NCBI GenBank assembly: GCA_963924555.1
Contig: OZ004592.1
Coordinates: 4,154,001-4,218,000 of the forward strand
DNA length: 64,000 nucleotides
Source of the DNA: Crambe crambe
Lineage: Eukaryota; Porifera; Demospongiae; Poecilosclerida; Crambeidae
Reading direction: 5' to 3'
Below, piece by piece: positions 7,520-46,200 of this stretch; the stretch's first letter is position 1, and every line of letters starts with the position of its first letter. The notes under the pieces were generated by a model, which was not told where the DNA came from, did no database searches, and worked only from the letters and a program-made list of their open reading frames with translations. The position numbers and the translations under genes were made by a program.

Positions 7520-7522
<3 letters not shown>

Positions 7523-9000: not shown

Positions 9001-10020
9001 TCCAACATCTTCAACTCCTTGAAGCTTTTATCACTTTCCATTCTGCTTCAAAATTCCTTTGCTGGTTTATTGACAGCAATGTCCATTGGTTGAACTGTTG
9101 GCTGGAAGTAGATGTAGTTGTTGTTGATAGTGGTCATCACTTGGACTAATGCAGCCTTGTTTGTATGTTTGTATCACCTTCATACTCTCTCTGCACTTCC
9201 ACATATGGAATGATGACATTGTCGATGTACTGGATCATCATTTCTTCTGTTGACGAACGTTTAGATGAGTGTCACAATACAGTCAGGTGGGAAATTAAAA
9301 TTAGATTGTCTTGCCTTATAAATAGGCAAGAAATCACCAGTAAGTGAACCACAGAAGTAATGTTTGTCATTCATGCCAGTGATTTCCACTTTCTTAGAAC
9401 CTTCACGGTCCATTGGCCAAGCAGATGCCAAGTACCGGTTTGGTAAAAATGAGCTCCAGAGAAATCTCTTCCATTGTTATCTAGAAAACTCTCCTTCAAA
9501 CTTCTGCTAGTTGTGCTTGCCCTTTGATGTGCTCGCCTGATGTAGTTGCCTTCCTCTTCGTCAAGTTGATTCTATGATAAGTTCAGTTCCTACTCAAGCT
9601 ACAATAATGTGACCCCCAAATTCAACTGATTCTTGCAACATTAGGATGCCATGGGAAGAAACAGATGCTGTGATCACACCTTATTGTTCTCTAAATAAAA
9701 TGCTCTATATATCCTCAAAGAAGACAATGTCCAGATTTCTTTGGTTGTATGGCAGTCACTTCGACATCTGAATCAACCTTTCTCTTCATGTAACTATTTA
9801 CCAAGCTTGTGTGAAAAAATAGATCTATAGCTGCTGAGATGCCATGCTGACTAGCATATTTCCTAATAGCTACTAGTAACTTAGTCTGTTGGAAATACCT
9901 AGAAATAATAATATACAATGTGTATAGCGCTTCTTTAAAACTGTCAGAGGCATCTATTGCTTTCACTTCATGCTGCCAGAAAATGATCTGGGAGTCCATC
10001 TCTTGGTTTAAAATATCCAC
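9000..10020 (-). pseudogene. Pogo/Tigger-type (DDE_1) transposase fossil, copy 1
   Basis: Read on the minus strand, the right part gives an N-terminal segment (ASQHGISAAIDLFFHTS, then VTAIQPKKSGHCLL). It resembles the region before the DDE domain that usually ends in a K-x-R-G-R-P-L-L type motif. The left part reads SLTGDFLPIY, then NFNFPPDCIVTH, EEMMIQYIDNVIIPYV and PMDIAVNKPAKEF, matching the order of DDE_1 nuclease blocks. Several stops and frame shifts separate the blocks, and the segment around the second catalytic Asp (after ALV) appears deleted. The fossil is in the intron before the Roc-COR exon and was there before the segment duplicated, because copy 2 has it too. Confidence 0.65.
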
Positions 10021-10029
10021 AAAGTGACA

Positions 10030-10720
10030 TGGTAAAATATGGGGATATAGCTACCATATCTTCATTTTTTTTAATTTTCCGTCCATACTTCCATGATGCT
10101 AACACTAACAACAACTTGATTTTGGTCTTGAAAGAAAATTCTCTCAGAGCTTTTCAATGGTGTATTTTACCTACTCTACAAAAAAAAAATGAAATAAAAT
10201 ATGGGTACGATACAAGACCTCAGTGGTTAAAAATATTCATAAGTGACCACAGACCCCTAGTAGACCTTCGATATTGCTAGTATTTCTATTAACCCAATTG
10301 CTTCATTGGAGTGATGGATTTTCACTAGGGAGGTATGGTTTCAAAATTATGAATCAGAGTACCATAATGATCTGGGAGTCCATCTCTTGATTTAAAATAC
10401 CCACAAAGTGACATGGTGAGAAAAAAAATACTTAAGTGAGTTACAAAGCCAAGTGCCCATTGCAATGCTGAATACGTGTTTAATATTCTTCTGAATATTT
10501 CAGTGTGAAATATTCCAGAAACACAAAAACAAAAATTACAAGAACTCCTAAGAATGTCAATGAGGAGAATTAATGCTCTAACAAACTGTAAAATTCTTCT
10601 CACTGAATGAATCTATATACTGGTATAATGTACACTATCTAGCTAGCTCTGTCAAATCAAATTTAGCTATTTTTAGCACTGATAGTAATTAATCAATATA
10701 CATTGTACTTTGACCTGTAG
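10030..10720. other. Intronic DNA before the Roc-COR exon of copy 1
   Basis: AT-rich and nearly identical in copy 2. The phrase atgatctgggagtccatctc occurs at 10369 and, as a related string, near 9987, so there is a local repeat. No coding evidence. Confidence 0.4.
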
Positions 10721-13203: not shown

Positions 13204-14973
13204 GAACTGATTTTGAGTTTTACCAGTCATACATATATTTTTTTAAAGAATTGTTTTACACGCTCATGCGCAGATGAAAACGCACAATCACACGCGCGCG
13301 CAGAAAGATCAGTCGACTATCTACCCTTTACCTTATTCGATCTAGCTGGTAGCCATCATCATCATCCAACGACTGAGATCAGAATGTGAAGCCCCCTTCT
13401 CTAAGAAGGCCTTAGACAAGAGGTAGTTCAAGATCAAAGGTAAGGGTACTTATTCTTTCTGGGAAAGAAAGGGATTGGTGTTTATATGAAGTGAAGAATA
13501 ATCTTACATGTGTTACTTTCCAGTCGATTTTTTAATTAATTAAAGGGATGGGAGTGGAGACTATACAACATATTTCCTACAGTATTGGACATTTCAACTC
13601 CATAACTTTGTTTGGTCAACAGTCTAAATAGGACATTTCGACTCCATAACTGAGAATATTTGCTCTGTGAGGTATATGAAGAGAGTGATGGTCTATATTC
13701 ATTTTCTTTTTCAGGAATATGTGTCAAATTGACTAAGCTCAATATGGACCTGTAGTTTGCTTTATGCTAAGACATGGTAAGTTCCTCTGTGGCGTAAAAT
13801 CTTGATACATGATCATGTCTTGTTGCCAGTGTTGGTGCTCACTGTACTTATCCAGGTTTAATATGAGAAAATAGGTTTGGATCAAAGCTTAAAACTAGCT
13901 GTTTTCTCAACCACATCTGATACTTTGATAACTCTTTACCATATTGGGTGCACATCAATCCTTGTGGCCTACCTATTAGTTGTAATGCTGAAAGGTGGGT
14001 GTGTGGTGGGTGAGAATTATGGATACAGAAAATGTGGTAATTTTCAGAGCATGCGATGCAGCTGTTGCTAAGGTGGTATCAGATTCAACCATCCCAGGTT
14101 GGTCTATCATTTCAAATCTGAAAATAAGCAAGACCGATCAAAATCATCACATGAAAGGAACTGTCTAATGAGTTAGAAGCATGTTATACCCCAGGCAGTA
14201 TTTTCAGGCTTATGTAATTCATAGTTTCAGGCAGGCTGAGACTATAGGCTAAGCTAGCACTGAGCATGTAGGGTGTGACTGCTTCATGCACCTGCATAAG
14301 TGGAGATAAAGTGTATTTGGGGGAGGGTTGGGGGTGTGTGGTATAATCATGGTGTGAAAAATTTTGGAGGACCCTTTAGTAAGTGGTAGGGTGAGACTTG
14401 CTTCATGCACCTGCATAAGTGGCGTGTGCTGCATTACTCAATCTCCGAGAGGCACTGAGTTATCTAATGTGTGACCTTGAAAGTGCAAGCCAAAATTTGG
14501 TGATATGTCATGTATACATAGACTATTTTCTATTCACAGCACTTTGACGTAGGTAGCCTTAGATGATTGTTATAACCACGTTGTAAGTTAGTCCACATTA
14601 GTTATGATGTCTAATGATGTTCCTCTAAATAATTATACCATAAGCCATTCCATATTAGAGAGAAGCACAAATTGTGAAGTAAAAAGAGCTAAGTAGGCAT
14701 GGTCAAGATTTCTGGGACACTACAGAGCTACAAGCCTAGCTTGGGGGGAGGGGGGTGGTGTAGCATCATGTTATGGTGCTATTGGTATCCCATTGGTTTC
14801 ATCCCATTACATTGAGTGTAATTAAATTGCATCCATGAATATATCCTTTAGAGTATAGTCACTCATATTTGTCCTCTATGGAACATGTAAGTGTATTGAA
14901 TTACTCTCCCTCTTCAACTAGTGAATCAATTACGGGTTTGCATGGTGAATTTGAATATACTTATTGCATCCAG
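13204..14973. other. Intergenic DNA after ROCO copy 1
   Basis: No gene supported. Around 13330-13440 an exon-like piece ends AAAG before gtaagg, which could be an untranslated first exon. It contains 13956-14247, deleted from copy 2, and a duplicated phrase tgcttcatgcacctgcataa at 14279 and 14399. The minus-strand open stretch at 13536-13742 has no recognisable motif. Confidence 0.4.
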
Positions 14974-15056
14974 GTCACAGAATCAGTATTCTTTGCAAGT
15001 TTACTTCACTGACCTCTTCGATATACCTCCCCCTGACAACACTGGTGGATGGAATG
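14974..15056 (+). pseudogene. PP2A-catalytic-like fossil exon, copy at 15.0 kb
   Basis: Bounded by an acceptor (tgcatccag) and a donor (gtgagt). It reads SQNQYSLQVYFTDLFDIPPP, ending TGGWNG. YFTDLFD followed by a frame-shifted LVDG-type end corresponds to the block YFTDLFDYLPLTALVDG of the PP2A catalytic subunit, and other copies of this exon keep RITIL before it. No open gene surrounds it. It is one of a serial family in this window. Confidence 0.6.
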
Positions 15057-15298
15057 GTGAGTCCCAGGGCTCACAATAGCATCACAGGACACTAACTGCC
15101 CTTGTGTGACCAAAAACTACTATTGGATAATCATGTCTACATGGACAACGATAGTGTTATTGCATGCCCTGAAGTCCCTGTACTCACATGACTATCACTT
15201 GTATCAATCCTTAATTGTCCCTTTCTATTTTCAAAGTCATGGCGGGTAATATGAAGGAGCTATGAACCAAAATGTCCGGTCACCTAAAACTAATATAG

Positions 15299-15327
15299 GC
15301 CCCCCCCCCCCCCCCCCCCCCCCCCCC
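15299..15327 (+). repeat. Poly-C tract, 29 bases, absent from copy 2
   Basis: An uninterrupted C run in copy 1. In copy 2 the sequence passes from cctaaaact directly to acttcattacttg (about 60690) with the tract and neighbouring bases missing. Confidence 0.9.
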
Positions 15328-15930
15328 GCCATAATCACACTTCATTACTTGACTTCATGACCACAGTTTTATAGTCTAACCTCTAGATACTGTATACTTC
15401 TGACTAACCAAACAATCCACACAAAAGCAGTACTACTATAGGACCCAACCATATAAGGTTACTGCTGATTGATTAAGTCAGACATGGCCAACAAGAATAA
15501 TTCATAGCTCACCACATATTTGTGGTAGCTTCTATGGGCCTACATGAATGTTGGGGGTACAGTTCAAAAGACTTTTCTGTCTCAACATGTAATGAAAATT
15601 TCTTTTGAACTGAACCGCCTAAAAAAAGGACCACTGAGACTGGCTAGATCAAGATTTGTATTAGCTGGAAATTTTATGTGGTGTATCTTTAGTGGATGTT
15701 GTGACATTGAAAAATATTCACAACAAGATAAGGGCATTTATTTGACTCACACTTCTATTTTGTGCAAACCACAAAAATTTTTTGAGCTATACGGTATCAA
15801 GCATTGAGCAGTTGTTGCACTATTCGACGTACTAGAAATTCAAAGAGTGACGACTGAATCATTTAAACTCGCATCCAATCTTGAACCAATAGGATTGGTT
15901 ATTCAGTATTCTTTATGTTCTCTTCTACAG

Positions 15931-16000
15931 ACCACTCCCTCACTCTCAGAAGGACATGGAGGAAAGGAATCTAGCCAGTGCTGATCTTGACATCCCATGA
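15931..16000 (+). pseudogene. Death-exon fossil, short (copy 1)
   Basis: It begins after the acceptor tcttctacag with accactccctcactctc, close to the start of genuine Death exons in the intact gene (acagacccctcccttaacc at 49584). The frame fails within about 20 codons. The counterpart is at 61298. Confidence 0.4.
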
Positions 16001-17144
16001 TAATATTCAGGAACAACACTCTAGTGAGTTACTAACACAAGGAGGCTTATTTGGAATTGTACTGGTAATAGGGGAAGTGGTATTTGTTGATGGTGCCTCC
16101 TTGTGCATGAAGTATTTTGTGTTATACTAACTCAATGGTTCTTCCTGGATGAAGTCTAATGTGGGCACACCACCTAGTGGATTTGACTTCATCCTTGCAT
16201 AATCAGCCCTTGTCCAACTCTTTCTTGACCAGTTTACCAGCCATCCCTAGTTTTTTTTTCTTTCCATTTTTGAAATTTAAATTTGATTGCATTATGATTA
16301 AGAACATAAAGAATAATGATAAAGTATGCTTTTATTGTTCTTCTGCATTGAGTCTTTCTCCTGCATGATAAGAATGTGCTTAAAATACAGGGTAAGCAGA
16401 CCTAACAGCTAGAACTTACTCAATTCTAAGAAAAGCTTCGTATGGAGGGTCATAGGTCATCCCTGTATAGAGAGTGCTAATTATTATTAAGGTTTTACAA
16501 AATTTCAAAAGTGAACTCTGTACCCTAGCCATATAGCAGTAAGCCTTGATCCAAATTGAACACAGTTGTATCTATAGTACATCTGAGACTTTGATGACCC
16601 TTTACCATATTAGGTGCTCATTAATTGCAATCCTATTGAATTAGGAGGTGAAGTATACATACCCATTAGATTTGATTTGATAGTTGTATGGCTAAGAAAT
16701 TATGTAAATTTGATGGATTAATGGCTACAAAAGATGGGATGTGGTAATCGTAAGAGAGATGTCTGACGACTATACATGCATGCTCCATTGTTATCTCAAC
16801 CGTCCCAGCTATGTTGGTCTATCATTCAGTCGTTCCCAAATCTGGAAATAAGCAAGGCCAATCGACATGAAAAGAGCTGTCTAATGAGTTAGATGTCCCC
16901 ACAGGCAGTATTTTCAGACAGGCTGAGCTGGACTATATGGCTAAGCTAGTATCTCCTGTAAAAGAATGTGATTAACTAGATCAGAGATTTCGAATTTTGT
17001 TTTATCCTCTGTTATGCATAGCAGATATTGAGTAGCACTGAGCATTGTGTGGCTGTTGACAGACTAGAAATTCAAAGTGTGACAACTGAAATTAATGTAT
17101 CCTCTTGTACAAGATTACTCACTCATTTGTGTTCTCTCTTACAG

Positions 17145-17260
17145 ATCCCTCTCGACTGAGTCACCCTCACTAATCTCACCCAGCTGCTGGGATTTTTAGT
17201 GGGTGCTGATCTTGACATCCACTACTTTTGGTGTGTGATAGCATCTGGAAACGACACGTA
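17145..17260 (+). pseudogene. Death-exon fossil (copy 1)
   Basis: After the acceptor ctctcttacag the sequence keeps the opening of a Death exon (ctcactaatctcacccagct = TNLTQL in the exon's frame). It then loses frame, and later bases (gtgtgtgatagcatctgga) match the VxDSVxDI region of the live exon at 49584. Stops in all frames make it non-functional. The corresponding fossils are at 36114 and 62424. Confidence 0.6.
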
Positions 17261-17329
17261 CCATTCCAGTAAGCCTTGACACTACATTCCAACTGTATTC
17301 CATATGGATTTGGATGTGGATATATGCAA

Positions 17330-17349
17330 AAAAAAAAAAAAAAAAAAAA
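17330..17349 (+). repeat. Poly-A tract
   Basis: About 20 A residues. Copy 2 (62607) has a shorter, interrupted run. No evidence links it to a retrocopy. Confidence 0.7.
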
Positions 17350-18196
17350 TTATGCTAAACCACCAAAATAAGTGACTAGTAGTGTTCCACACACGTGACT
17401 CTGACCCAAATCCTCAAAATGCCTGAGAACCCATGCCGGTATCCCCTGGACCTATAGTGTGTACATTAAACCCTGACTTTACTGCAAGACAATAAAGATC
17501 ACTCAAAGTAAAGCTTTAATGGATACATTGTGCTCAAAGAGAATTGAAGGCAGCCTAGGATACTAATGATATCTTGTAGCACTGTGAGATATATGAAGAG
17601 AGTGATGATTCATATTCATTTTCTTTTCGAGGAATCTCTAACTGATTGACTTGCTAGAATATCTGGACCTGTAGTTAGCTCAGAATCTGCTAGGACATGA
17701 TAAGTTCCTCTGTGAGGTCTAAAATCTTGAAACATAATCATGTCTTGTTGCCAGTGTTGGTGCTTGCTGTGTTTAATGTGAGGAAATAGGTTTGGATTTG
17801 AACTCTGTACCCTTAATCCTAGCAATGTGTCATGATCACAGCCGGCCTGTTTCTCAACCCCATATACACCTGAGACTTTGGCGACCCTTTACCACACTAA
17901 ATGTTAATCCAATCAAAATCCACACGAAAAGAACTGTCTAAGCATGGTTATATCCAGTCAGTATTTCAGGCTAATGTGATATATTGTCTATATAATGCAC
18001 CATCTTAACTGCAGGCCTGGCTTAGAGGGGGGTGGTATATATGGTGCTATTGGTATCCCATTAGTTTCCTGTAATTACATTGAGTATACATATCCATGAA
18101 TATACTTTAGAGTTTAGTCACTCATATTTCTCTTCTATGGAGCATGTAAGAATGTGAATTTCAGTGCTGAATCAGTCACAAGTTTTGTGCATCCAG

Positions 18197-18488
18197 GTCA
18201 CAGAATCACTATTCTTTGCAAAGTGTACTTCACTGACCTCTTCGATTATACCTCCCCTTGACAACACTGGTGTAGCTACCCTTGTGTGACCAAAAACTGT
18301 TATCGGATAATCATGTCTCCATGGACGATAGTGTAATTACATGCCCTGAAGTCCCTGTACTCACATGGTTATCATTTGTATTAATCCTTAATTGTCCTGC
18401 TTTTGTGTAGATTGTGGTTTGTCATTCTCCATACATATATTCTGTGCAATATCAGGACACTGGATGGTTTCAAGAAGAACCTTGTGAA
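18197..18488 (+). pseudogene. Two PP2A-like fossil exons, copy at 18.2-18.5 kb
   Basis: The first exon remnant is 18197-18274 (after gcatccag). It has one extra T in ttcgattatacc and has lost its donor end. The second is 18411-18488 (after tttgtgtag, donor gtaagt), which in one frame reads CGLSFSI. That resembles the GGLSPSI block that follows LVDGQIFC in PP2A catalytic subunits. The same pair is at 37860/38111 and 63471/63685. Confidence 0.55.
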
Positions 18489-18889
18489 GTAAGTACTGTA
18501 CTTGGTGTGTGTGACTTTGAAAGCCTCACTTTCTGGTGGAAATAAGGAGGAAAACATTTTTGTTAGAATCAATGTATTATCATGTGCATTATTTGGAGTT
18601 ATCATAACTTGCTGTAAACATGAGGTACCAGCTCATAAGCCTGCATGCCAACTATAATGCAATTCATGATGCAGATTGAGAAATCTTTGGTTAGTCAGAA
18701 GTATAGTATCTAGGGATAAGATAGCCTCGTTCCCAGGCTCTCAGTGAAACGGGAAATGTGGGGGCGGAAAGGAGAGCCTGGTTTCTACTGCACGCACGGG
18801 CATGTAAATTTTGACCACATAATTATATTCATAACACTCGCTTGTGTGAGCAGAGTGCAGCTATTGCCTTGTTTAGCAGTTCTGGATTA

Positions 18890-23415: not shown

Positions 23416-23460
23416 ATGTCCTATGAGAGTGATGTCCAGTAGTGCCACAACTAATCCCAG

Positions 23461-25215
23461 TACCTCCTGGACAATATATAGTATCCCAGGTATACTGGGA
23501 TAGTCCTGGGATATCCTAGAGGTAACAAAAGAGGGCCCCATGTCCTAAAATACTAAGTATACCAGGTATTGGAAAGTCTTGGGGTGTCCTAGAGATAACA
23601 GGAGGACCCCATGTCCCAAAATACTAGGTATACCAGGTATACTGGGAGAGTCCTGGGATATCCTAGAGGTAACAGGAGGACTCCTGATCCCAAGTATACT
23701 AGGAGAGTCCTGGAATGTCCTAGAGGTAACAGGAGGACCACAGGTCCTGAAATACCATATCCCAGGTATACCAGGAGAGTCCTGGGATATCCTAGGGTAA
23801 CAGGAGGACAGGTCCCAAAATACTAAGTATCCCAGGTAGTCCTGGGATATCCTAGGGTAACAGGAGGACCGCAGGTCCCAAAATACTAAGTATCCCAGGT
23901 AGTCCTGGGATATCATAGAGATAACAGGAGGACCCCAGGTCCCGAAATGCTAAGTATCCCAGGTATACTGGGAGAGTCCTGGGATATCCTAGAGGTAACA
24001 GGAGGACCCCAGGTCCCGAAATACTAAGTATCCCAGGTAGTCCTGGGATATCATAGAGATAACAGGAGGACCCCAGGTCCCGAAATGCTAAGTATCCCAG
24101 GTATACTGGGAGAGTCCTGGGATATCCTAGAGGTAACAGGAGGACCCCAGGTCCCGAAATACTAAGTATCCCAGGTAGTCCTGGGATATCATAGAGATAA
24201 CAGGAGGACCCCAGGTCCCGAAATGCTAAGTATCCCAGGTATACTGGGAGAGTCCTGGGATATCCTAGAGGTAACAGGAGGACCCCAGGTCCCGAAATAC
24301 TAAGTATCCCAGGTAGTCCTGGGATATCATAGAGATAACAGGAGGACCCCAGGTCCCGAAATGCTAAGTATCCCAGGTATACTGGGAGAGTCCTGGGATA
24401 TCCTAGAGGTAACAGGAGGACCCCAGGTCCCGAAATACTAAGTATCCCAGGTAGTCCTGGGATATCATAGAGATAACAGGAGGACCCCAGGTCCCGAAAT
24501 GCTAAGTATCCCAGGTATACTGGGAGAGTCCTGGGATATCCTAGAGGTAACAGGAGGACCCCAGGTCCCGAAATACTAAGTATCGCAGGTAGTCCTGGGA
24601 TATCATAGAGGTAACAGAAGGACCTCAGGTCCCAAAATACTAAGTATCCCAGGTATACTGGGAGAGTCCTGGGATATCCTAGAGGTAACAGGAGGACCCC
24701 AGGTCCCGAAATACTAAGTATCCCAGGTAGTCCTGGGATGTCCTAGAGATAACAGGAGGACCCAAGGTCCCGAAATACTAAGCATCCCAGGTATACTGGG
24801 AGAGTCCTGGGATATCCTAGAGGTAACAGGAGGACCCCAGGTCCCGAAATACTAAGTATCCCAGGTAGTCCTGGGATATCATAGAGGTAACAGAAGGACC
24901 TCAGGTCCCGAAATACTAAGTATCCCAGGTATACTGGGAGAGTCCTGGGTTATCATAGAGGTAACAAGAGGACCCCAGGTTCCAAAATACTAAGCATCCC
25001 AGGTATACTGGGAGAGTCCTGGGATATCCTAGAGGTAACAGGAGGACCGCAGGTCCCAAAATACTAAGTATCCCAGGTAGTCCTGGGATGTCCTAGAGAT
25101 AACAGGAGGACCCAAGGTCCCGAAATACTAAGCATCCCAGGTATACTGGGAGAGTCCTGAGATATCCTAGAGGTAACAAGAAGACCCCAGGTCCCAAAAT
25201 ACTAGGTATCCCAAG
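23461..25215 (+). repeat. Left subterminal minisatellite, 138-bp higher-order repeat
   Basis: Two related units alternate. One of 74 bp contains ggtatactgggagagtcctg, and one of 64 bp goes straight from ggtagtcctggg. The 138-bp period is exact between starts at 23954, 24092, 24230, 24368 and 24506, and looser outside. Both units share aacaggaggacc and caggtcccgaaat. The reverse complement of this array forms the right array. Reading frames across it are artefacts of the repeat. Confidence 0.95.
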
Positions 25216-25334
25216 TACACTGAGGGATATAGCTGGCCTAGTCCCCAGGCCCTCCTTTTTAATATAGCTAGTCTTTGCACTGTGGTTAAAGAATCATGCA
25301 GTAGAGGCACACATGGCTGAAAATTAAATTTAGT

Positions 25335-28300
25335 TTAGAGTGATTGTGAATTCTTCCTTCTATTATGTAGATCACAGAGGTATAGTATGTAAAACATGAA
25401 ATGTTGCTTGTTCATGTGCCGGGTTATGCGAGCATATCGTGACAACCAAGAGAATGTCTGTTCACATATCTCTGTATCAACCTACAAACATGTAGAAAAA
25501 TTAGTTTACAATTTCTATTCCTCAGGATGCTGTTATATCACTAGCTATACCTTTTCTAATTCGATGAAATCATTCGGGTTACAGTGAGCTCTGCACCATG
25601 GATCTATGTGCCCCTTAAAGTGCATTTTGTCCACGACTATATGCATTTGTGCTATCCTTTCAGCTGTGGCAGTTTGTTCTCTCCTTTTACGACTGGAAGC
25701 AAATTTTCTTAAATGGCATCCATCATCATATACCAAAAAATCTTAAAATAATAATAGTGAAACAGATGAACTTGAGTATACTTTCAACCTACTGATATCA
25801 GATGTTGATGTTTGATTCATCTCCATAAAGCTATGTATACTGCCATACACCTGAGATTTTGATTCAGCCAAGAAAAGCTCTTCAGCCAATGTAATTATCC
25901 CACATGGCCATATACCCGCTAAAATTCCTGTGATTATAACCATACAAATAATTTATAGCTATGACTACGTACTTTGTGCTCAGAACTTTGATCATAATTA
26001 TTATTGTTCTGTATACATCATTGTGTGCTAATCTAAGAACTTGTGGTAATCAAAGCAAACCTAGCATATGGCACACATGGACCATATGCGCATATCCATA
26101 TTTTAAGTGGCATAATAACTAAGTTTGGAGCTAGGTACCTACATTCATAACCAAAGATTATTAGTATCAGAGAGTGCGGTAGCACTCTCTATGTAGGGAT
26201 GACTCGGACGGCCGCGCGCGCCGCCTATAGACTAATACAAAAGTGAAATTCCAGTTCCCCCACTTAGACCTAACAAAAGCTACTGTGAATGATTATCCAG
26301 CCTACTAGAGCCTACTACAATGTGCAGACCAAGTTTCAGGACCAGGGAGCTTACCGTTTCAGAAATACGGCAAGCAGGTAAACCGCTATATTCTTCTTCT
26401 TCTCTATTATTATTATTATTATTATTCTTCTTATTATTATTCTTCTTAGACAACCATATCTCTCGAACCACTCAAGCTACAGCTATGATTTCTGGACAAA
26501 TCCACTCCAAATTCTACGAACTACGATCTTTTCTACTCGTTGATCCTCGAAAGAGTCGATGAAAAAGGAGACACTAAGGAGCACAGCACTCGACTAATTC
26601 AATTAGGAAGCCATCTTTTCTATAATACGCATGCGCATGTATTTGATATCCAATTATTCGAAATTATAATATTATTCAGCTGCCTCTAGCTAGCTAGCTA
26701 GGTATAGGTAGCTAGAATAGTGCTAGTGATGATGATGATAGACTACTGTATCGACTCGGGGATTTAGATTCAACAAGGTAGACTCTATTTCAGCATCTTC
26801 TACCTCCACCTTGACTCGTTGATAGTGATTGGGCTGGTATGCTATTGGAGAACTATTCTTCTTTCATCTGTCCCTGCATACACATAGAAGAATGAACTCT
26901 ATACATAGCTAAAACCATAAAAGAGAGGAAAAAAAGACCAGGAACAAGTAAGGGAAAAAGCATTTCGTGAAAGCTACCCGACGTATATGTAGGGATTGTT
27001 GGCTGGATATACAGAACAAAGATTCCATCCTTCTTGTTTCCTTACTTTTTTGTGCAGTGGTCATCCCTACATCTTTTTTCATTTCACGAAATGCTTTTTC
27101 CCTTACTTGTTAGCAATTTCATAATACCCACAAAATGACCCACATAGAGACCTAAGGGGTAGGAGATCAAGTAGGGAATTAGGCATCATGTCACTTGAAT
27201 ATTGGGTTCCTAGCCCCCTTCAAAAATATTGGTGTGCTGTAATTAGGAATTTAGTGCAAGTGCATGTACCTGCTGTGCGATGATGCAGTTTTTCTTTGTC
27301 CTTTTCTGTGTTACACTGCACATTTGTGGACTCATCCAGTTCAGGAGTAAACACTCTATAATTATTATAATAATCTAAGACTACCATTATATGTACAAGT
27401 TAAATTTGATAATTTGGCAGTCTGTCTTGGGGCTCGAGTGTATCTCGCGCATGCAGCGAGCAATGAGCTGTGCACGCAAGATCAGATTAGCTAGCAAGCT
27501 CCGTTACTAGCTATTTTGCGATCATGATGGCTCTTTGAAAGTTCCTGAAGAAGGAAAGGGAGTGTTTCCTTGACAGAAGCTCAGTTAAAAGATAGATCGT
27601 GAAGTGAAGAGGACTGCTGCTTCCCTCGGCTAGTTAGCTCAATGCACAAATGCGCGATAACATACTGCTGCCAATAATAATGTCTGCCAAAAGCCTCCTT
27701 GGTACAAATGCCAAATAAAACTCCCGCCAAAATTAACTCGTATACGGTATATATTTAGATACTAGCTGCACACACTGGAGTAATGAAGTGACAAGTAGAA
27801 TAAACAGTTCGAAACAGTTCAAGTGAATGCTGTACGGCTGCTCTTTGAAACAGATGTAGTGGTAAACATACTACATCTGCATACATAGCTACTGAAATAT
27901 ACTTCACTAACCCGTCACTCTCTTTTACAACAGTTCGAGATTGCTGCAAAGTAGAAGTATGGCTGTTATTCACATCAAAAGTGAGAGTGTGGATTTTTTG
28001 TCCCACGCCTGTTAATTCAATGGATTCCTTGACTGTAGACATAGCATTCCTCTCAAACTCTTCAATGATGGCTGATGGAACATTTTCTGCTGGTTCCCAA
28101 GTTACATCACATCTTTCCTTTCCCAACCACAATACCTGTGGGGGGAATAAAGATGATACTTTTATTTTTTCCACACTTAGAATCTGACCAGGGTTTCTTT
28201 CATTATTATACCCAAGGGGGAAGGTTATGTAAAATATGGGGAGTAGGCATATCCACATGCTTGTGCATGGAAAATTTTTGGCCTGACCATGCCCACTTTT

Positions 28301-30136
28301 GCCTAACCACCCCTTTGGATAAACTGCTCGCTTGAAATGACTTTATATATTGAGATGCTTAATTTACTGAAATCCCAATGACACCCCCTGAAAGAAACCC
28401 TGCCAACTAATGAAAACATTTTCTGTGCTAAGACCAAGGGATCTCTATGAATATGAAAACCATGAGCTTAAATAACTGCTTCTTAAGACCATAAATAAAA
28501 AGGAATGAACAGAATTTGGACAGCTAGCTATTATTCTCACCTCATAAAAAGTGTTGTTTCTAGTGATTTTCTTATTGAGTAATATTTCTATTACCCCTCG
28601 GTTTCCACGTGGGTCAAGAGAAGAAAGCTGCTTCATATGGCGAGGCTTGTGTGATGTACAAAATAAACTTTGTTGTTCAGGTGTTTCCATACATCCAGTT
28701 TTCACACTTCCTGGTAGGCCTTCATATTCTATGAACCCAGCATCTTCTGCTCCACACACAGGACGATTATTCTTTTGGTTACCATCCAAAACAAGGACTT
28801 TCCCACAGCCTTCTTTCTGGCAATGATGAGCTGTATATTATAGAGATCATTGTGAGTGTAATATTGCAGTTTGTCAACCAGTCATCACAGCGCACATCAT
28901 TTTGCATACTCTAGCTACAGGCTCCATACAATTGAATAATCTTGCATTATAATGTTTGTTGGTTTTTTTGTTTTTGTTTAATCTGTGGCCATGACCTGTT
29001 AGACTGCTCTATTCTATCATCACACTATCTTAGAGTGCATTTAGCCCCCAACCTTCTTTGAAGTGAATATTACTAGCTTATTTACTGATTACCTGAGTAT
29101 TTCACATGGAATGCACGTTGGTAAACTGGGAAGAATTGCAAAAGTGTCTCTTTTAGATCAGAGGAGAAAGTAATTCTTTTGATAGTGTCTGGGTACCAAG
29201 AAAGGACATTCAATATGGCATATCTGAAATGAGCGGCTTCAAGCCTCCTTCTGTCCAATTTGCAGCGGTGAACCTCACTGTAAATGTACCCCATTGATAA
29301 ACTTTTTTTTTTTAAATTTATCTCTAACAACTTATATTTTTGATAAGAAACTTGCCAACAATTTTTTTCTTTGAAGACCAAATAAAAAAGTTGGCTGTTT
29401 CTTGTAAAAAATAGAAATTGTTTGAGATTAAAAATTAATAACTGAAAAAGAGAGCTTAAAATAATAAAGGTATTGTAACCTACCTCTTCTCCTCCAAATA
29501 TCCATGGATGTCATTATATAGCTCAGCTCTCTGTTTGTAGCTGATTTGTCCTATCAATACTTCTTTATCGAGACGACGAAGCATGTCCAAACAGAAAGCT
29601 GTCTCACGAGATGACATGAAATACAGTTCTTTCTGCCAGTCATTATCGTACTTCACTTCACTACAGTCGCCTTGGGTATAGTATCCGTAATGCTGCTGGA
29701 ATGAGCACCCTTTTCTACGGCAATACCTGGTATAGTGGGTAGCAGGCAGTGTCCCCAACCTATCATCGTAGAGAGTGACATTAGATGTCCGGCCACCTCT
29801 TGTGTACAGTTTTGATCCACAGGTTATGCACTTTGTCTTACTTGAAATTAATATAATCCCAAGAGATGCATCACTTCCTACTCTCTTCATCATCACAATT
29901 TCTTCAATCAGTTCTCTATCTGAAGCGAGTGCTCCATTATCCATACATTGAATGTTTTCAATTAACTGAAGGGCCTGTTCAGGATCCAAAGAATTTCTAT
30001 CTTCCTTTCCCTTCAAAGCAAATGCCGCAACATTCTCTGAATAATTGGGCATATCTTGTGGGAAGTATGTAGCTGCAAATTCCAATCTCCTCAGCACTGA
30101 AGCATCCTTTATTGACTTAGTAGCTAGGGAAAGCAT
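25335..30136 (-). CDS. KDZ-family transposase, eight exons, 636 aa, apparently intact
   Basis: Exons (minus): 30136-29484, 29277-29093, 28830-28541, 28135-27912, 27355-27270, 25927-25793, 25741-25551 and 25481-25335, all GT/AG with matching phases. Residues 103-144 hold a CxC-type zinc cluster (CITCGSKL, then YCRRKGC). Around 281-288 is a second Cys/His group (HHCQKEGC). Residues 372-405 form a chromodomain-like strand and helix (YEVLWLGKERCDVTWEPAEN, then VPSAIIEEFE). The C-terminal KDZ core shows CNTEKDK, then RTAGILAGIWPCGII, SKSQVYGSIHSF, VYDDGCHLRKF, DKMHFKGHIDPWC and VDTEICEQTFSWLSRYARI. The acidic residues of YDDGC and EQTFSW are plausible catalytic positions. Family knowledge: KDZ transposases have an RNase H fold and cut and paste large elements. 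An acceptor-like ctttccctag just after the chosen ATG leaves room for an upstream exon. Confidence 0.8.
25928..27269. other. Intron 5 of the KDZ gene, with nested repeats
   Basis: Holds a small repeat near 26165-26260 related to the one at 8745, a TTA/TTC microsatellite at about 26395-26450, and a family B MITE remnant at 26945-27115. Reading frames at 26280-26562 come from the microsatellite. Confidence 0.55.
27356..27911. other. Intron 4 of the KDZ gene
   Basis: More GC-rich than its surroundings, with gcgcatgcagcgagcaatga at about 27449. No coding motif found on either strand. Confidence 0.4.
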
Positions 30137-30323
30137 ACTATTAGTTAGCTAGTACAAGATTTCACAATGAAAAAGCACAATGTGGTGCACATGCTTTTAT
30201 GCACATGTGCAGAAAGCATGTGTATGTGATAATTTCATGCACATGTGCAGAAAGCACATGGTTGTGCCAGGTTGATATTTTCTGTCACAGAGTATAGCAG
30301 CAAGTTAGAACTGTGCATATATT
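30137..30323. promoter_or_regulatory. Divergent 187-bp promoter between the KDZ and DUF3987-like genes
   Basis: The two start codons face away from each other across 187 bp. It contains two near-identical blocks, atgcacatgtgcagaaagc at about 30200 and 30238, each with the palindrome gcacatgtgc, plus further CATGTG/CACATG hexamers. Paired symmetric sites midway between two divergent genes fit a shared regulator, possibly an element-encoded one. No TATA box is obvious. The role is inferred. Confidence 0.55.
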
Positions 30324-32374
30324 ATGGCTTCTCCTGGTCGAGGTGATAGAAGGGCTAAGCTTATGGATCTGAAAGAAAGACTTGAAAAGTGCTGGAAGTT
30401 GTCATTGAATTGGAGTCTTTATCCTCTGCATATTGAAAAGGTGATTAGCTACAGGCTAATTCTACAATATTAATCCTGTGCTAAATTTCCAGGGTTGTGC
30501 TCAGATTGGGAGAGCTATTGATATGCCACCAGATGCTGTCCTGAGTGGGATATTACTTTTGCTCAGTTTTTGTATGTCTCACTGCACAGTGACTGTGCCG
30601 GGAACAGTGTGGGTGGAGCCAGCAATCTTATGGATTGCCATCTCAATGCCCACAGGGAGTGGAAAAACACCTCTTTTCATGTTCCTAACTAGCATTCTTA
30701 GGAAGGTGCGCTCCAAATTGCAGTTAACTAAGTCCCACCCCCCATGGCTTCTGGATGAAGCCAGCTTCGAAAAAATGGGTGAACTCATGTCAAGCAATAA
30801 TTCGAAGCTGCTAGGCATGTATGACGAATTATCTACCTTCCTAGCCCAAATAAATGTCTATAGGGGTAAAGGTCTTTGTGAATCACATGACCTTTCAACT
30901 TTCCTGTCATTGTACACAGGAAAATCATGGACACGTGCCACAGGTAAAATGTCTTAAACTCTTTAGTTACACATGAATTATATAATAGTGGGTTCTATTT
31001 TTAGTATCTGGGGATGCCAATTTTAGCATGGAACGAACAGCATTGACTGTGGGGGGATTCACACAACCCACTGTTGCCCGGGCCCTTATTGAGCTTCCAG
31101 CAAGCATTGAAAAGGGCCTAACACAGCGCTTCCTCTGGATATTTCCAAAACCTTCCTTCGCAAAATTTGATTCTCTAGAACTTATTGAAGAAGAGTTTTC
31201 TACATACCTTGGTGAGCTCCTTGCATGGTATGCTAGTAGTATAAGGATATTAATGCCCACAATGTATCATTATGCATTAATCATTTATAATGTTCTCTAT
31301 AGTTGAAAGACTTGTCTCCATATGGCAAAAAGGAAAAAAGGTCCTAAATTTTGAAATCCCCTCAAGCCCAGAGTTTGCAACATTCTATAACTCAGCCCAA
31401 CAAAAAATCAGTTGTCTTTCTGTGGTGGATGAACTGCTGGCTGGTATGTCTGAATTTACCATCAAATTTACATTTTATCAAAAAGTAGAGAGGCAGCCAC
31501 ACTAGTTATCCATATACCAATAATGTATAATCCAATTTTTAACTACACATAGGCATGCTAAGCAAAGCAAAAGGCCAGGTCCTTCGAGTGGCAGCTTCAC
31601 TACACATCCTAATGAGCGATCATCATCATGAGGTTGATGGAACAATAATAGTGTCAGAGGTTCCTAATGTGATATCAAAGGAGGCAATAATAGCTGCCCA
31701 AAATTTTGTTAACACTTGCTGTCAGCATGCTGCATACATTTCTGGCAGAGGTAAAATAGAGGATGAAATTGAAAAGATATCAACAGCTGCAGGTATGTAC
31801 AACTACTTTTAAATTTCTCTGGTGTGCCTCTAATGGACAATGGTAAAGTAGCTAGCTCTATATAGACGTAGGCCTGATTAGACACACAACCTTCACTAAC
31901 TATACTTTTTTAGATGAGGTTGTAGAGGAAGGATCAGTTGCAACTACCACTTCAGTTGCAGCTTATTGCTTGGGGCTGCCTGGGAAGAATCTGTACCTTA
32001 GTGCTTTATTGGCAGCAAAAAAGTTTCGTGGCCGTGGCAACAAAAAAAAGGCTTTGGAAGCATTTGAAATGCTGGAGAAAGAGGGCATTGGAAGGCTGGA
32101 TTCTAAAGAGAGCCGCAGAGGAGCATCGGCTGTAAGTATAATAGTAGTTGCAATCAAGAACAAGAGTATTATATGGTAATCTCTCAGGTATATGTATTCA
32201 TAAAGGAGACAATTGACAAGAACAATATGGAAACCATGGCAGAGAAATTATCCAAATTTGGCATATCACTGTCAGTATACCAAAGAGCAATGCGAATGGA
32301 GGAAATCAGGTCTGTCGATATTACGCATGCCCTAAGTAGTTATAATAATATTAATTTCCATTTAATATAACGCG

Positions 32375-32405
<31 letters not shown>

Positions 32406-32656
32406 TCTTTTAATACCTGGGACTACTAATACAGATCTCATGAAGATAAACGTCCCCGAGATTACACACCATCCCCCAAGAAGAATGGCAATAGTAAAGG
32501 AAGATCCCCATTCAGAAAGCGTTTATGTATGGAAGGCAGGTAAGCAGTGGATATACAATTACAAATATTCCTTAAGTAGTTACAAATGGATACAGAGAAA
32601 CTGCCAACTCAGGAAATGAGAAGAACATGGAAGAAAACTGCCAGGATGTCAAGTAA
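30324..32656 (+). CDS. DUF3987-like P-loop ATPase, nine exons, 553 aa, apparently intact
   Basis: Exons: 30324-30440, 30493-30943, 31005-31211, 31303-31443, 31553-31792, 31914-32131, 32188-32309, 32435-32539 and 32596-32656. All phases join and the frame closes at TAA 32654-32656. Walker A is PTGSGKTP (about residues 92-99), a Walker B-like YDEL follows (about 150), and LDEASFEKMGELM lies between. The third exon reads TVGGFTQPTVARALIEL and GLTQRFLWIFPKP, the Q-x-x-x-G-L-x-Q-R-F pattern of DUF3987 proteins. These resemble the ATPase part of primase-helicases of mobile elements. The C-terminus is basic (RDYTPSPKKNGNSKGRSPFR). It starts 187 bp from the KDZ gene and lies inside the same inverted ends. 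A role in element replication or repair is inferred. Confidence 0.75.
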
Positions 32657-33715
32657 GAAAATAATAATGTACTTTTAATCGTTAATTCCCATTAAGGTGA
32701 TGCATCCAGGCATCTTAATGATTAGTTAAGGTTCCAGTATACTGTTGAATGCAATCTTTACTATTATAAAACTTTCTAAATAATGCACACTGAGTAACAT
32801 GGCTTATTGTAGTAAGGGTAGTATTTACACAGCTAGTATTCTTGCTGTTCAATGCTTTCGAACTGCTGTTTTGAATGGTTATTTTCACACATAGCTTGAT
32901 TGAAGTATGTGTATACATTGTTTGGAAGCCTTCATCATGGCTCTCTCTTTGGCACTTCAAACAATCACTAGTTCGTGTACACTGCAATCTCTGTTGTTTT
33001 TGTTCACTGCTCAGTTCTCTGCATGTCATAATGCGCTTGATTTGTTGGCAAAGACGACCAAGAAGCATCATCTTCAAGGTGTAGAGTTACCATGTAGTGA
33101 CTGCAAGCCTGAGCCTGTCTGTTTATCCTTAGTACTGTAGTGAAGCTTGTGTCTAGAGCTAATGCACATATTCAAGGTGCCGAGGCAAAAAGGCTACTCA
33201 CTTTTTCCCTAGCCAAGAATCTGTCTTTGGATGCTGCTTTAAGCTTGACTCTATATTGCCCAATAAAGGAAGTATGGCCCAATAAAGGAAGTATGGCCTT
33301 TTGAATTAACATAATCCAGCTTTTCAATGAATTTTGGCAAATAAAGCAGTATCTTCATTTGATAAGACCTAGACATAATAGGAATTTTAACTTAAGATTT
33401 AATAAGTTTGATATGCCATAACAGTTTTCACATGTAGCTATAATTTTTTGGTATAGCCTGGGCCAGTACAATATTGTTGTGATCACCTTCTATTTGAAAA
33501 TTAATTTTCATGTATACTGGAACCTTAAAATACTATTGAGCTCATAATATATATTTTTGTTGTTTTGTTTTGAACAGAGAAAGTGACTAAGGAAGTGTTA
33601 TATTCTCCTCCATTGTGACTCATCAATTTATACCCTACTCACTACTCATCAATTCATTATCCTATTCATTATCATCTACTCATCATTATTGTAATACAAC
33701 TCTTCCATGATATGA
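32657..33715. other. Non-coding DNA right of the DUF3987-like gene
   Basis: Contains a repeat at 32757-33140 whose reverse complement is at 48905-49275 in intron 3 of the ROCO gene. Open frames in that stretch are carried by both copies in different states and show no family motif. The rest is AT-rich with short taaaggaagtatggccca duplicates at about 33263. Confidence 0.5.
32757..33140. repeat. 380-bp interspersed repeat, nested in the KDZ element
   Basis: Shares long strings in reverse orientation with 48905-49275, for example gtgtacactgcaatctctg against cagagattgcagtgtacat. It has been inserted or copied at two unrelated places. No terminal repeats were identified. Confidence 0.7.
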
Positions 33716-33726
33716 GTGCTTCACCA

Positions 33727-34940
33727 GATATATCCCAGGACTCTCCCAGTATACCTGGTATTAGGACCTGGAGTCCTCCTGTTAACCTCTAGGCTATTCC
33801 AGAATACCTGGGATCCTCCTGTTACAACCCAGAACTACTTTAAGACCTGGGGTCCTCCTGTTACCTATAGGATATCCCAGGACTACTCCGAGGATACCTG
33901 TGATGCTTCGTATTTCGGGACCTGTTACCTATAGGATATCCCAGGGATACCTGGCATCTCCATGATTATCCCAGGATACCGTAAGACTCTTTCAGGCACA
34001 AAAACCTGGAATATCCCAGGACTATCCTCTTCCAGTTTGCATGGACCTTGGGGTTCTCCTGTTACCTCTAGGATATCCCAGGACTATCCCGGTATACCTG
34101 GGTTACTTAGTAGTTTGGGACCTGTTACCTATAGGATATTCCAGGGATATCTGGGATACTTAGCATCTCCAGGACTATCCCAGGATACCATAAGACTCTT
34201 TCAGGATACCTGGAACATGCTGGACTATCCCAGGATACCTGGGATACTTAGTACCTATAGGATATCCCAGGGATACCTCCATAAGACTCCTTCAGGGTAC
34301 CTGGAATATGCCGGACTATCCCAGGAAACCTGGGATACTTAGTATTTCGGGACCTGTTACCTGTAGGATATCCCACTTAGCATCTCCAGGACTATCCCAG
34401 GAGACTCTTTCAAGATACCTGGGATATCTGGGATACTTAGCATCTCCAGGACTATCCCAGGATACCTGGGATACTTAGTACCTATAGGATATCCCAGGGA
34501 TACCTCCATAAGACTCTTTCAGGGTACCTGGAATATGCCAGACTATCCCAGGAAACCTGGGATACTTAGTATTTCGGGACCTGTTACCTGTAGGATATCC
34601 CACTTAGCATCTCCAGGACTATCCCAGGAGATTCTTTCAAGATACCTGGAATATCCCAGGACCAGTTTACATGGACCTGGGGTTCTCCTGTTACCTCTAG
34701 GGCATCCCAGGACTATACCTGGGATACTTAGTATTTTGGGACCTGGGATCCTCCTGTTACTTCTAGGACATCCCAGGATTATCTCTGGGATACTTGTAGC
34801 TATCTCTGGTTCTGGGGTATACATTTACTACAGGACTATCCCAGTATAATATCTCGGAATGATTATTACTGTGAGATATTATGTACTGCTGGTGCTCCAA
34901 TGGGACATCTGGGACAATCCCAGAGGTAACAAGATTCCTG
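33727..34940 (-). repeat. Right subterminal minisatellite, inverted relative to the left array
   Basis: Units such as cccaggactatcccaggata and tcctcctgttacctctagga are the reverse complement of the left array's units. This array is less regular, with deletions and block shuffles, for example a roughly 260-bp block beginning ctatcccaggaaacctggga repeated near 34316 and 34545. Its orientation relative to the element end is the same as on the left, so the arrays act as part of the inverted termini. Confidence 0.9.
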
Positions 34941-35050
34941 GTATTAGTCCTGTTACATCCTAGGATGAGTTGTGGCACTACTGGACATATATGTCCTATG
35001 AAAGGAAAAGAATTATGCTATATAAAAAGGCCATGTAGGGTTACTTTTAC

Positions 35051-42299: not shown

Positions 42300-42444
42300 T
42301 AAAAATTCATGATACATCATTATGCGCATGCGTAGTTTAGAATATAGGGAGTGGCATTATACAGCAGATAAACAAATGCAGCGGTGAACCATTGAAATAA
42401 ACGAATGATCATACTAAAGCTTCGGTTCGGGCTTAGTGTGAATC
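42300..42444 (+). promoter_or_regulatory. Upstream region of the ROCO gene
   Basis: Contains the palindromic tatgcgcatgcgtag (about 42321) and a cttcggttcgggcttagtg leader just before the ATG at 42445. No TATA box is obvious. Promoter status is inferred from position. Confidence 0.35.
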
Positions 42445-43285
42445 ATGGGGAACAAGTCCAACAAGGAGAAACGACCCGATCTTGATCCCTCTATGTCCTC
42501 AGGGGGTGTTCCTTCTTCTTCAAGTACGAGACCAAATGATCATCCTTCTCCTAAAGCTGGGCTTTGCAATTCTTCTTCAAAGTCTGATAATGAGTCCAGT
42601 AATTCTTCTCCACAAAAAACTGACTCTTCTTCTAACCCTCCCCCTCCAAACGCTGTGCTGAATGTTCCTGCCCCAAGGACTCTGTCAAGTGAGCCTCCCC
42701 CTCCAAGCGCTGTGGCGAGCATTCCTGCCCCAAGGACTCTGTCAAGTGAGCCTCCCCCTCCAAGCGCTGTGGCGAGCGTTCCTGCCCCAAGGACTCTGTC
42801 AAGTGAGCCTCCCCCTCCAAGCGCTGTGGCGAGCGTTCCTGCCCCAAGGACTCTGTCAAGTGAGCCTCCCCCTCCAAGCGCTGTGGCGAGCGTTCCTGCC
42901 CCAAGGACTCTGTCAAGTGAGCCTCCCCCTCCAAGCGCTGTGGCGAGCGTTCCTGCCCCAAGGACTCTGTCAAGTGAGCCTCCCCCTCCAAGCGCTGTGG
43001 CGAGCGTTCCTGCCCCAAGGACTCTGTCAAGTGAGCCTCCCCCTCCAAGCGCTGTGGCGAGCGTTCCTGCCCCAACGACTCTGCCAAGTGAGTCTGCCCC
43101 TCCAAACGCTGTGCCGATTGTTCCTGCACCAAGGACTCTGCCACCCCCTCCAAACATTAAGCCTAGTAACCGTCATTCTCCAAAGTCCGAGGTCAGAAAT
43201 GCAGGGCCTCCTTCATCATGGACTGGACGAAAAGTCTCTCGACAAGAGAGACGAAGAATTGAAAGAATTAAGCGCAAGTGCAAAG
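42445..43285 (+). CDS. ROCO gene exon 1: N-myristoylation motif and Pro-rich repeats
   Basis: MGNKSN fits the consensus G-x-x-x-[STAGCN], suggesting myristoylation and membrane anchoring. Seven nearly identical 19-residue units (VPAPRTLSSEPPPPSAVAS) and degenerate ends follow. PPPP flanked by acidic residues could bind EVH1, SH3 or WW domains. A basic stretch, RKVSRQERRRIERIKRKCK, ends the exon. Donor AAAG/GTAGCT is in phase 1. Reading on past the donor would stop at 43395, so an unspliced 316-residue form is possible. Confidence 0.7.
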
Positions 43286-46200
43286 GTAGCTACATAACGT
43301 TCATGCCTTACCCCATTGGTCTTACTGACCTTTTATCAAGTTTAAGGAAAAAAAGGGGTGATGAGTTTGGTTGTCATCTTTTAGTTCCCAAGTAGAGAAA
43401 TGTGTTTTACCTGTCCCATTTTCTCAAACACGATTAAAACTAAATTTTAATCTGTAGTGTATATGGATTTTTGGGATGATGGGAAGTAGTCCAATCACGA
43501 TATCCTTACATCATGTGGTAACATGGATGGTCCCTTATGCATCCCTTTTTGTATGCCTGCACAAGCATAAGGCTAGCTATGGCTAAAAATTATATGGATT
43601 TCTTATTAATGGTGAACCCACTAAGTTCTGCCCTAGAATTATCATCATAAAACAACAACAACAATAACAACAAAAAATAAGCAACAACAAAACCCACCAA
43701 AAAACCACAACATGATAACCTTGAAGAACAGTGGGCAAAATTAACACTCTCATAATACTTCTACGATCGAGTGGATTGACTTGAGATAACAACTGTTCAT
43801 AAATAATTATCATAAAAGTGAAAATAGTGCATGTAGTAGTAGATTTGTTCCATAGGTCCCTGTAGCTCAAATATTTGCGTTGAAGAATAAATTTGAAATA
43901 AACGTCTAAACAGCAAGTGGCATGGTATCTCCAACCCTTGAATCTTCTGTGTCCATTCAATATCATACCCACTCTTCTTAAAATAGAGGATATTTTCATT
44001 GACAAATTTAATTATCCTGCTTTTCTTGCTACTGGATTTTGAGGTTCTTCCTCACGTATCAACATTTAACTGACTGCTGCTGCTCAGATTTCAATATAAT
44101 CTATGATAGATTTTTTGCACTCTTTCTCTCTACTTGTGGAGCTAAGTTATTGCACTGATACTAAGACTATAGTTGATTCAAATGGAGTGATCTGATTGGT
44201 CAGTCGCAGGGCTCTTATTTCACTTAGTGCCCATCGTCATTGGCAGCGGGCACTATGTAGCTCAGTCTCAGGCCCTTACCTTGCTGCACTCAGTCACTAC
44301 AGCCCAGGGCCTTCAGGTCTCTTAAATGTATGTCCATCGGTCTCAGTGTCTAACTATTATTTAGCCAGCAAAGACACTACCTCTATGGTATTGTGTGTGT
44401 GTTTTGGGAGATAGAAATCAGTTGGGGGAGCATATTATATGAATAATGGGGAGGGGAATTTATGCCCCCCCCCCCCCCCAAATTGATAACAAAGAGAAAG
44501 GTGTTGTCAAAATTGGTCTTACTTGATGGAGACTTAGAGGAATAAACATTTAGGAGGTACATTATGGAAAGTACAGAACCATGTACCTAGGTCCATTATT
44601 GCACCTATGGTAAATAAATCATCAGACCATTATAGCATCCTTATAATAAGAGTATTGGGGAACATTAAAATTTTCATAATAGTCTAATTTATTCATGTGT
44701 CCTGTAATACTAGACCAGATACAAATGGAGTTTTTTCCTGTTAATTAAGTGGGTATAATTTTTATTAGTAGCACTGCCTCAGTTACTCCCCACTTAATCT
44801 CATACCATGCAGAATAACTTTCCCTCTGTAGCATGATGTGGTGTTACAGGGTTCTGTTCAAGTGTCCTGAGTTAGAGAATTATGACTTTCAGTGTTGAGT
44901 GTCAGTACCACTATGTGCAGACCAGTGTGGTGATACTGTACTTTTAATGTTTTATTTATTTATTTCCAGCTCCTCCCCTCAGTGTGGACAATATCATGAC
45001 AGTCCTAGAAACCCTTCCATGGAGGGAGGTTGGTGACATGCTGTCTGTCCCTGACTCCAAGCTTGATGCAATAGATGCTGACCACACAACAGACGAGGGG
45101 AAAAAAGGAGCAGTGATAAGATATTGGCTGTTGAGGGATCCGTACGCCTCCTGGAGGATGCTTATATCTAGGCTTGACGCTAATGATAAGCTTGACATCG
45201 CAGACCGGATACGGAACTATTCAGAGAAGCAAACAGGTCAGTAACCACATCAAATAGTTGGTCCCCCCAATTAATGTACTGCATATAGCTTGAATGAAAG
45301 CATAGTGGGTGAGAAAGAATGACTTTACTATGATCACCTTCTCCTTGTTTGTGTGAGTGAGTAACTGTTGAAGTCACATAGTTGTACTGTCTACTTTGGA
45401 CTGTAGGAACATAATATTATGTTATAGGCATGGGTATGGTGAAAGTTTGTCCAGTTGTGTCCCCGGAGTCCCAGGGATGGGATTATAGTAGGTCACTTGA
45501 GTGTACAATTTAAAATTAGGACTGACTCTCCAAGGTTGTCCCTTAGTGTCAGTCTATGGACATTAGTGAATTAGCATAGCAACCTCAACCTGTAGTTCCA
45601 ATAGTAACTACTAGCCCTGATGAAACAAATTTTTTCCCAAATATAAACATACTTATTCGAGTGCACTGGGTTTAATGTGGTATGAGCAAGACTCTACGTA
45701 CATCCAGATGTCAAGACATTTCAGTTAGAGTATAATAATGATATATGTGTAGTACGTTGGAAAAAGGATTTTTTCTATCTACCACAAGCTACCATAAAAA
45801 CTGTAGAATTATATTTTAATCACATCCCCTAGCCCTCGCTATATACACCAGTACAGTACAGTTGATTCTTTTTTTATCCGGAGAGAAATCTAGCTAGCTG
45901 CTACCAGTAGCCACTGTATCTCTGCCATCACAATCAATGGCTGAAACTTACACAAAAGGATCAATGAATGAAGCCAAACCATGAATAGAAGAGCTGCATT
46001 GCATGAGTGGACTGTCTAACTCTCAAGATCCTTTTATGTAGCAGTGATAAAAGATGACAGTAGTTGGACATATATCTTTTGACTGCTCTCCAATTAGAAT
46101 TATGTCTCTAGAAATGGCCCACTGTTATGTTATTTTAAAGGACCTGTTAATCTGAAGAGCCTATAAATATTATCAAGAGCATTAATTTGTTATAGCATTA

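Follow-up and report, generated by a model that had tools for sequence, protein, structure and literature searches.

The analysed window, a stretch of 64,000 nucleotides from the genome of the sponge Crambe crambe, contains a transposon that carries two divergently oriented genes, one for a transposase of the KDZ group and one for an ATPase with a DUF3987 domain. Both genes lie between inverted terminal repeats, subterminal arrays and the two copies of a duplicated target site, as listed in Table 1.

Table 1. Features of the transposon, with positions counted from the first nucleotide of the window
Feature	Position	Strand	Remarks
Whole transposon	23427..34993	.	11,567 bp; limits from the empty site and both ends
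Left target-site duplication	23419..23426	.	TCCTATGA, 8 bp; single copy at the empty site G000:C15:4063816-4064315
Left terminal inverted repeat	23432..23452	+	21-bp exact run ATGTCCAGTAGTGCCACAACT; terminus GAGTGATGTCC at 23427
Left subterminal array	23501..25222	+	TRF periods 138, 276 and 414; shorter sub-units within
KDZ transposase gene	25335..30136	-	8 exons, 636 aa
KDZ exons	30136-29484, 29277-29093, 28830-28541, 28135-27912, 27355-27270, 25927-25793, 25741-25551, 25481-25335	-	
Gap between the two start codons	30137..30323	.	187 bp; presumed bidirectional promoter
DUF3987 ATPase gene	30324..33590	+	10 exons, 556 aa
DUF3987 exons	30324-30440, 30493-30943, 31005-31211, 31303-31443, 31553-31792, 31914-32131, 32188-32309, 32435-32539, 32596-32652, 33578-33590 (to stop)	+	
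Right subterminal array	33728..34790	-	Limits by eye; TRF rows 34137-34655; units inverted relative to left array
Right terminal inverted repeat	34968..34988	-	21-bp exact run; terminus CTGGACATATATG, last base 34993
Right target-site duplication	34994..35001	.	TCCTATGA, 8 bp; from the empty site

The name KDZ stands for Kyakuja, Dileera and Zisupton (Pfam PF18758), and Zisupton elements have terminal inverted repeats and duplicate 8 bp of their target. Both traits are found in the window. The inverted ends agree at 25 of 30 terminal positions, including the exact run of 21 bp, whereas random pairs of 30 bp drawn from the window had at most 15 equal positions and none of 5000 reached 20. Genome-wide, the end sequence occurs 41 times with at most 3 mismatches, versus 9 occurrences for its reversed control. 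The first-pass annotation, which had proposed matching inverted ends, was thus right on this point; its flanking direct repeat of 11 bp had to be shortened to a target duplication of 8 bp, the other three bases (ATG) being the end of the element. They are assigned to the element because a second copy on contig C14 also terminates in ...CTGGACATATATG, followed by GAGT and by an 8-bp repeat of its own, CACTAAGC (read in window orientation), and the empty site places the limit at the same position.

This empty site was found with a query of 500 bases, in which 250 bases from each side of the element were joined with one TCCTATGA and searched against the genome. All 500 bases aligned, at a reported identity of 100%, to a site that lies on the contig of the window at a distance of 113 kb (coordinates in Table 1). 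In the 201 bases inspected, the left flank and TCCTATGA were identical and the right flank had one substitution. Two further empty sites on the same contig matched the joined flanks at 97%. The search for empty sites that had been proposed earlier was thus successful: the element, including its two genes, was inserted in a single piece into a site that is duplicated in the genome, which confirms that it is one transposon.

The arrays just inside the ends are built from one and the same unit, which runs in opposite directions on the two sides; 76-nt stretches of the two arrays are up to 93% complementary. More specifically, TAACAGGAGGAC was counted 20 times on the left and its complement twice in the right array, and both are absent from the central part of the element and from the window outside the element. 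Together with the repeat periods reported by TRF, these counts agree with the inverted minisatellite arrays noticed in the first pass. Moreover, two other loci with a related end (L015 and L019) retain array stretches at 77-79% identity. The number and the symmetry of the units suggest that they are putative binding sites of the transposase.

Both genes, as had been claimed from the open frames, splice into full reading frames with GT-AG introns throughout. The spliced KDZ protein has a CxC5-like cluster, a DGN motif, a chromodomain and an RTAG...YDD...VVD...EICEQ core, and its residues 489-625 match the KDZ profile at 41.6 bits (cut-off 26.6), a partial match over profile positions 85-214 of 217. 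The chromodomain scores 26.3 bits against a cut-off of 25.1, and the CxC5 match, at 24.3 bits, stays below its cut-off of 26.9; the genome has six other CxC5 matches, two of which (C6:7961482 and C13:1201358) lie in loci paired with DUF3987. Within the core, the VD and TE..EQ motifs are common to the KDZ protein of the window and its distant relatives L092 and L093, and the YD motif is shared with L093; we take these motifs to be the catalytic residues (triad). The KDZ match comes from the spliced protein, the unspliced genome-wide Pfam search not listing the window. An initial view, that the gene lacks a catalytic domain, derived from an exon-wise Pfam scan that covered only the four N-terminal exons of the eight, and was rejected because the spliced protein has the KDZ domain.

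The second protein matches the DUF3987 profile (PF13148) at 107.6 bits, far above the cut-off of 27, and a PHROG 'DNA helicase' group with an E-value of 4.6e-13. It has a Walker A motif (MPTGSGKT), a Walker B-like motif (GMYDEL) and the motif GLTQRFLW. All five relatives aligned at Walker A (L054, L089, L048, L050 and L040) retain its lysine, but L050 and L040 differ at the second glycine of the motif. Of the five aligned at the Walker B-like motif, four retain DE, E being replaced by K in L052, so that not all copies resemble a standard ATPase. Pfam found neither a primase domain nor a DNA- or histone-modifying domain in this protein. NCBIfam gave no match; a sequence search of the PDB yielded a single hit (E 0.88), to an unrelated protein, no phage relatives were found at 1e-5, and among viral contigs 11 and 600 pattern matches were obtained, none of which was confirmed. 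The predicted fold of one C-terminal exon piece has a mean pLDDT of 59 and was set aside.

The surroundings of the element are rich in repeats. A multicopy palindromic repeat (35002 to about 35245), for which some 35 copies at 86-92% were found among the best 40 of 866 candidates, directly adjoins the right end. The contig that holds the empty paralogs of the insertion site also holds a tandem segmental duplication, the blocks of which (4766-18720 and 50087-63998) are 94-99% identical at an offset of about 45 kb. It carries a long open frame of 572 aa in one copy and 732 aa in the other; the former matches Pfam Roc at 20.8 bits, below the cut-off of 27, and the latter matches no family at 0.001. 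In addition, 1537-3275 on the minus strand, with 557-1030 on the plus strand, shows DUF6589 matches of 121.9 and 28.9 bits (cut-off 27) next to an open frame that by eye resembles RecQ but has no Pfam match at 0.001. The two may possibly constitute another two-gene mobile element. Finally, a proline-rich open frame of 317 aa (42442-43395) contains a 57-bp (19-codon) repeat in 8.8 copies with 96% matches, and also lacks a Pfam match at 0.001.

To follow the two genes through the genome (143 Mb in 119 contigs), each spliced protein was searched against the whole assembly and the matches were clustered, which yielded at least 35 KDZ and at least 29 DUF3987 clusters. As only the best candidates were scored (69 of 122 for the KDZ protein and 78 of 105 for the DUF3987 protein), these copy numbers are lower bounds. 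Among the clusters from those 78 best candidates, 17 of the 29 DUF3987 clusters, including the one in the window, have a divergent KDZ cluster with the 5' ends at most 2.1 kb apart, whereas random placement of the DUF3987 clusters, repeated 2000 times, gave 0.35 pairs on average and never more than 3; in these trials, clusters in the first 4 Mb of contig C3 were shuffled only within 0.2-4.0 Mb. Two pairs on C5 are counted twice, since they lie in a duplicated block whose locus pairs are identical over 3.1 kb, and the pairs at C3:0.597 Mb and C3:3.273 Mb have equal scores and may stem from one duplication; we therefore count about 14 independent pairs among the 17. An additional, more distant divergent pair is present on C13. 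Seen from the other gene, 10 of the 11 KDZ clusters that retain the N-terminus have a DUF3987 partner, four of the ten being the two C5 pairs in the duplicated block, and the eleventh (C3:1438225) has no DUF3987 match nearby. For the other 12 DUF3987 clusters, in the same set of best candidates, no KDZ cluster in divergent orientation lies closer than 5 kb.

The first-pass annotation had asked whether the divergent pair recurs inside the same ends. The pair does recur, and common ends were found in part. Ends were examined for the window, for one C5 pair (in the duplicated block) and for one C3 pair. A DUF3987-side end of the window type lies beside the C5 pair, in both copies of the block, and beside the C3 pair; their KDZ-side ends were not found with at most 3 mismatches, and both ends together were seen at the window.

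The pairing is a property of one lineage of KDZ transposases. Of the 27 KDZ loci detected with the Pfam profile, 26 have no DUF3987 match within 10 kb. Among the 21 of these 27 loci that were read in part (L056-L085 and L093), only the paired L093 matches the transposase of the window by tblastn (searched at E 1e-4, and at E 1 for the core region). Taken together, this implies that pairing marks one divergent KDZ lineage, and that KDZ transposases in general do not need the ATPase. What the first-pass annotation had named as its refutation, KDZ genes alone and a DUF3987 gene in single copy, is not the situation in this lineage, yet KDZ without DUF3987 is what nearly all Pfam-detected loci show. 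Within the lineage, pairing is retained across ATPase relatives that range from 87% to less than 30% identity, and the identities of the two proteins over seven pairs have a Spearman correlation of 0.69, which is not significant at this number (p 0.086, n=7).

Several observations on the distribution of the two families stand beside this result. Among the best candidates scored, the first 4 Mb of C3 holds 19 of the 29 DUF3987 clusters, and likewise 26 of the 35 KDZ clusters, of the window lineage. Transposons may be concentrated in this region, or the way in which candidates are chosen may account for part of the excess. A second DUF3987 family has three copies with tandem arrays of their own (L043 at C1:6059500, L044 at C3:5281117 and L045 at C17:6435419); L043 is 97.8% identical to L044 over 2.7 kb and 99.4% identical to L045 over 3.0 kb. 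Among the matches listed, no KDZ locus was found near these copies and no TNP-like locus within 30 kb, and the family is possibly another mobile element. A DUF3987 locus at C3:1539426 (L047) adjoins a TNP-like RNaseH_C exon and has a TNP-like RNaseH_N match on the opposite strand at a distance of 2.1 kb. We therefore considered whether DUF3987 is also associated with TNP-like transposases (which we take to be of the P-element/THAP9 type). This is not supported, because TNP-like loci are very common (150 among the matches listed) and none of those listed is closer than 30 kb to the three-copy family of C1, C3 and C17.

Deletion derivatives, which keep one or both ends together with pieces of one or both genes, link the ATPase gene to the ends. 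On C14, a derivative of 3.1 kb retains the two ends along with the 3' portion of the DUF3987 gene; it covers window positions 32079-32884 and 33327-34993 at 99.4-99.9% over 2.5 kb, with a left end at 97%. Another, at C3:2051480, joins 28597-29154 (KDZ) to 31171-31243 (DUF3987), the right-end arrays and the right end, the right end being the one observed. It follows that the DUF3987 gene belongs to the mobile unit. Moreover, the gene is under purifying selection. A comparison with a relative on C5 over 411 codons gave pN 0.19, pS 0.73, dN 0.23 and dS 2.8, and the KDZ gene compared with a C6 relative over 395 codons gave pN 0.30, pS 0.84 and a saturated dS; the synonymous sites are near or at saturation, so that the ratios are bounds only. 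As a control, the KDZ piece in the C3:2051480 derivative, compared over 107 codons, gave dN 0.11 and dS 0.10, values that a dead copy should show.

We interpret the locus as a complete-looking DNA transposon of the KDZ class with two divergent genes, the DUF3987 protein being an accessory ATPase that is most likely helicase-like, and we assign a probability of roughly 0.7 to this reading. The KDZ protein would bind the terminal repeats and the many units of the subterminal arrays, would pair both ends, and would cut and paste the element with its DDE-type RNase H core. The DUF3987 protein, supplied by the element itself, would most likely work as a helicase-like motor, either at the ends or on the gaps and forks that transposition leaves behind. 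We prefer a helicase-like role because DUF3987 domains replace known helicases in primases of prokaryotic mobile elements, according to the passages of PMC5862659 cited here. A bolder proposal, which we put forward tentatively and do not favour, is that an ATPase of the replicative helicase type is the obligatory partner of the transposase, such that end opening or the processing of gaps and forks is driven by the element itself. If true, this would amount to a two-protein transposition machine, for which no KDZ counterpart was found described.

The main rival holds that the ATPase is a regulator of the transposase or a factor for target choice, like TnsC, MuB and IstB, and not a helicase. Tn7 (TnsB/TnsC), Mu (A/B) and IS21 (IstA/IstB) combine a DDE transposase with a separate ATPase, and by analogy the element in the window follows the same logic, although these systems are bacterial and their ATPase families differ. 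The retention of the Walker A lysine in all five and of the Walker B-like DE in four of five aligned relatives would suit such a regulator. Against this, the family affinity of the DUF3987 protein is with predicted helicases, and a regulatory role seems rather unlikely to us.

A second alternative is that the ATPase gene was captured once as a passenger and has no role in movement. The 26 unpaired KDZ loci and the 12 DUF3987 clusters without a divergent KDZ neighbour are in line with this view. However, the pairing recurs, persisting down to less than 30% ATPase identity, and selection acts on the DUF3987 gene, whereas a passenger on a transposon should decay; a pure passenger is therefore quite unlikely. 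It is also conceivable that the ATPase aids the element in another way, for instance in evading silencing by the host, by analogy with the TET/JBP genes of fungal KDZ elements, which have been suggested to counter methylation-based silencing (PMC12730594, in the parts cited here). The match to a helicase group (PHROG) and a Pfam scan without any DNA- or histone-modifying domain make this very unlikely. That unrelated pieces became nested by chance to give the 11.6-kb unit, as the repeat-rich surroundings and the multicopy repeat at its right end might suggest, is contradicted by the empty site, which spans the whole unit, and by the same ends and recurrent divergent pairs elsewhere, and is extremely improbable.

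With the recurrent pair, a family of helicase-like proteins that is known from mobile elements of prokaryotes is found within a eukaryotic element. KDZ elements have been little studied and, to our knowledge, no more than a few DDE lineages have an added motor protein. The combination of KDZ and DUF3987 makes the role of a dedicated ATPase in eukaryotic transposition directly testable, as one and the same genome supplies a copy that looks complete, a clean empty site, derivatives with deletions and numerous diverged pairs. The pairing was not found described in the literature searched, the founding KDZ papers and Repbase lying outside this search; among papers that name DUF3987 no title or opening of an abstract concerned a eukaryotic transposon, and the word DUF3987 is absent from PMC12062965.

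Compared with known KDZ transposons, the element in the window has a KDZ domain above the cut-off and an 8-bp target duplication like that described in fungi for the Dileera element Zisupton-1_PGr (PMC12730594, section 3.1.1), and differs in its additional, divergent DUF3987 ATPase gene. Kyakuja-1_LB and -2_LB, as described in section 3.2.1 of that source, have duplications of 7 bp and lack inverted repeats. The fungal KDZ elements that carry TET/JBP (PMC12730594, in the parts cited) likewise have a second gene, theirs encoding a dioxygenase and that of the window an ATPase. A combination of a DDE transposase with a motor protein is also seen in eukaryotic Kolobok transposons (KolobokH and others), which have a RecQ helicase, encoded in one instance by the opposite strand (passages of PMC9587614); these belong to another transposase superfamily and have RecQ instead of DUF3987. 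The ATPase itself is related to prokaryotic primase-helicases of mobile elements (the PrimQH and All3500 families), in which DUF3987 is a predicted helicase (PMC5862659, as far as cited). The domain family is the same, but the gene in the window is stand-alone, eukaryotic and interrupted by introns, and Pfam finds no primase domain in it. Overall, the transposon is well supported and of a known class, its DUF3987 accessory gene appears to be new, and the pair has been kept through a long divergence.
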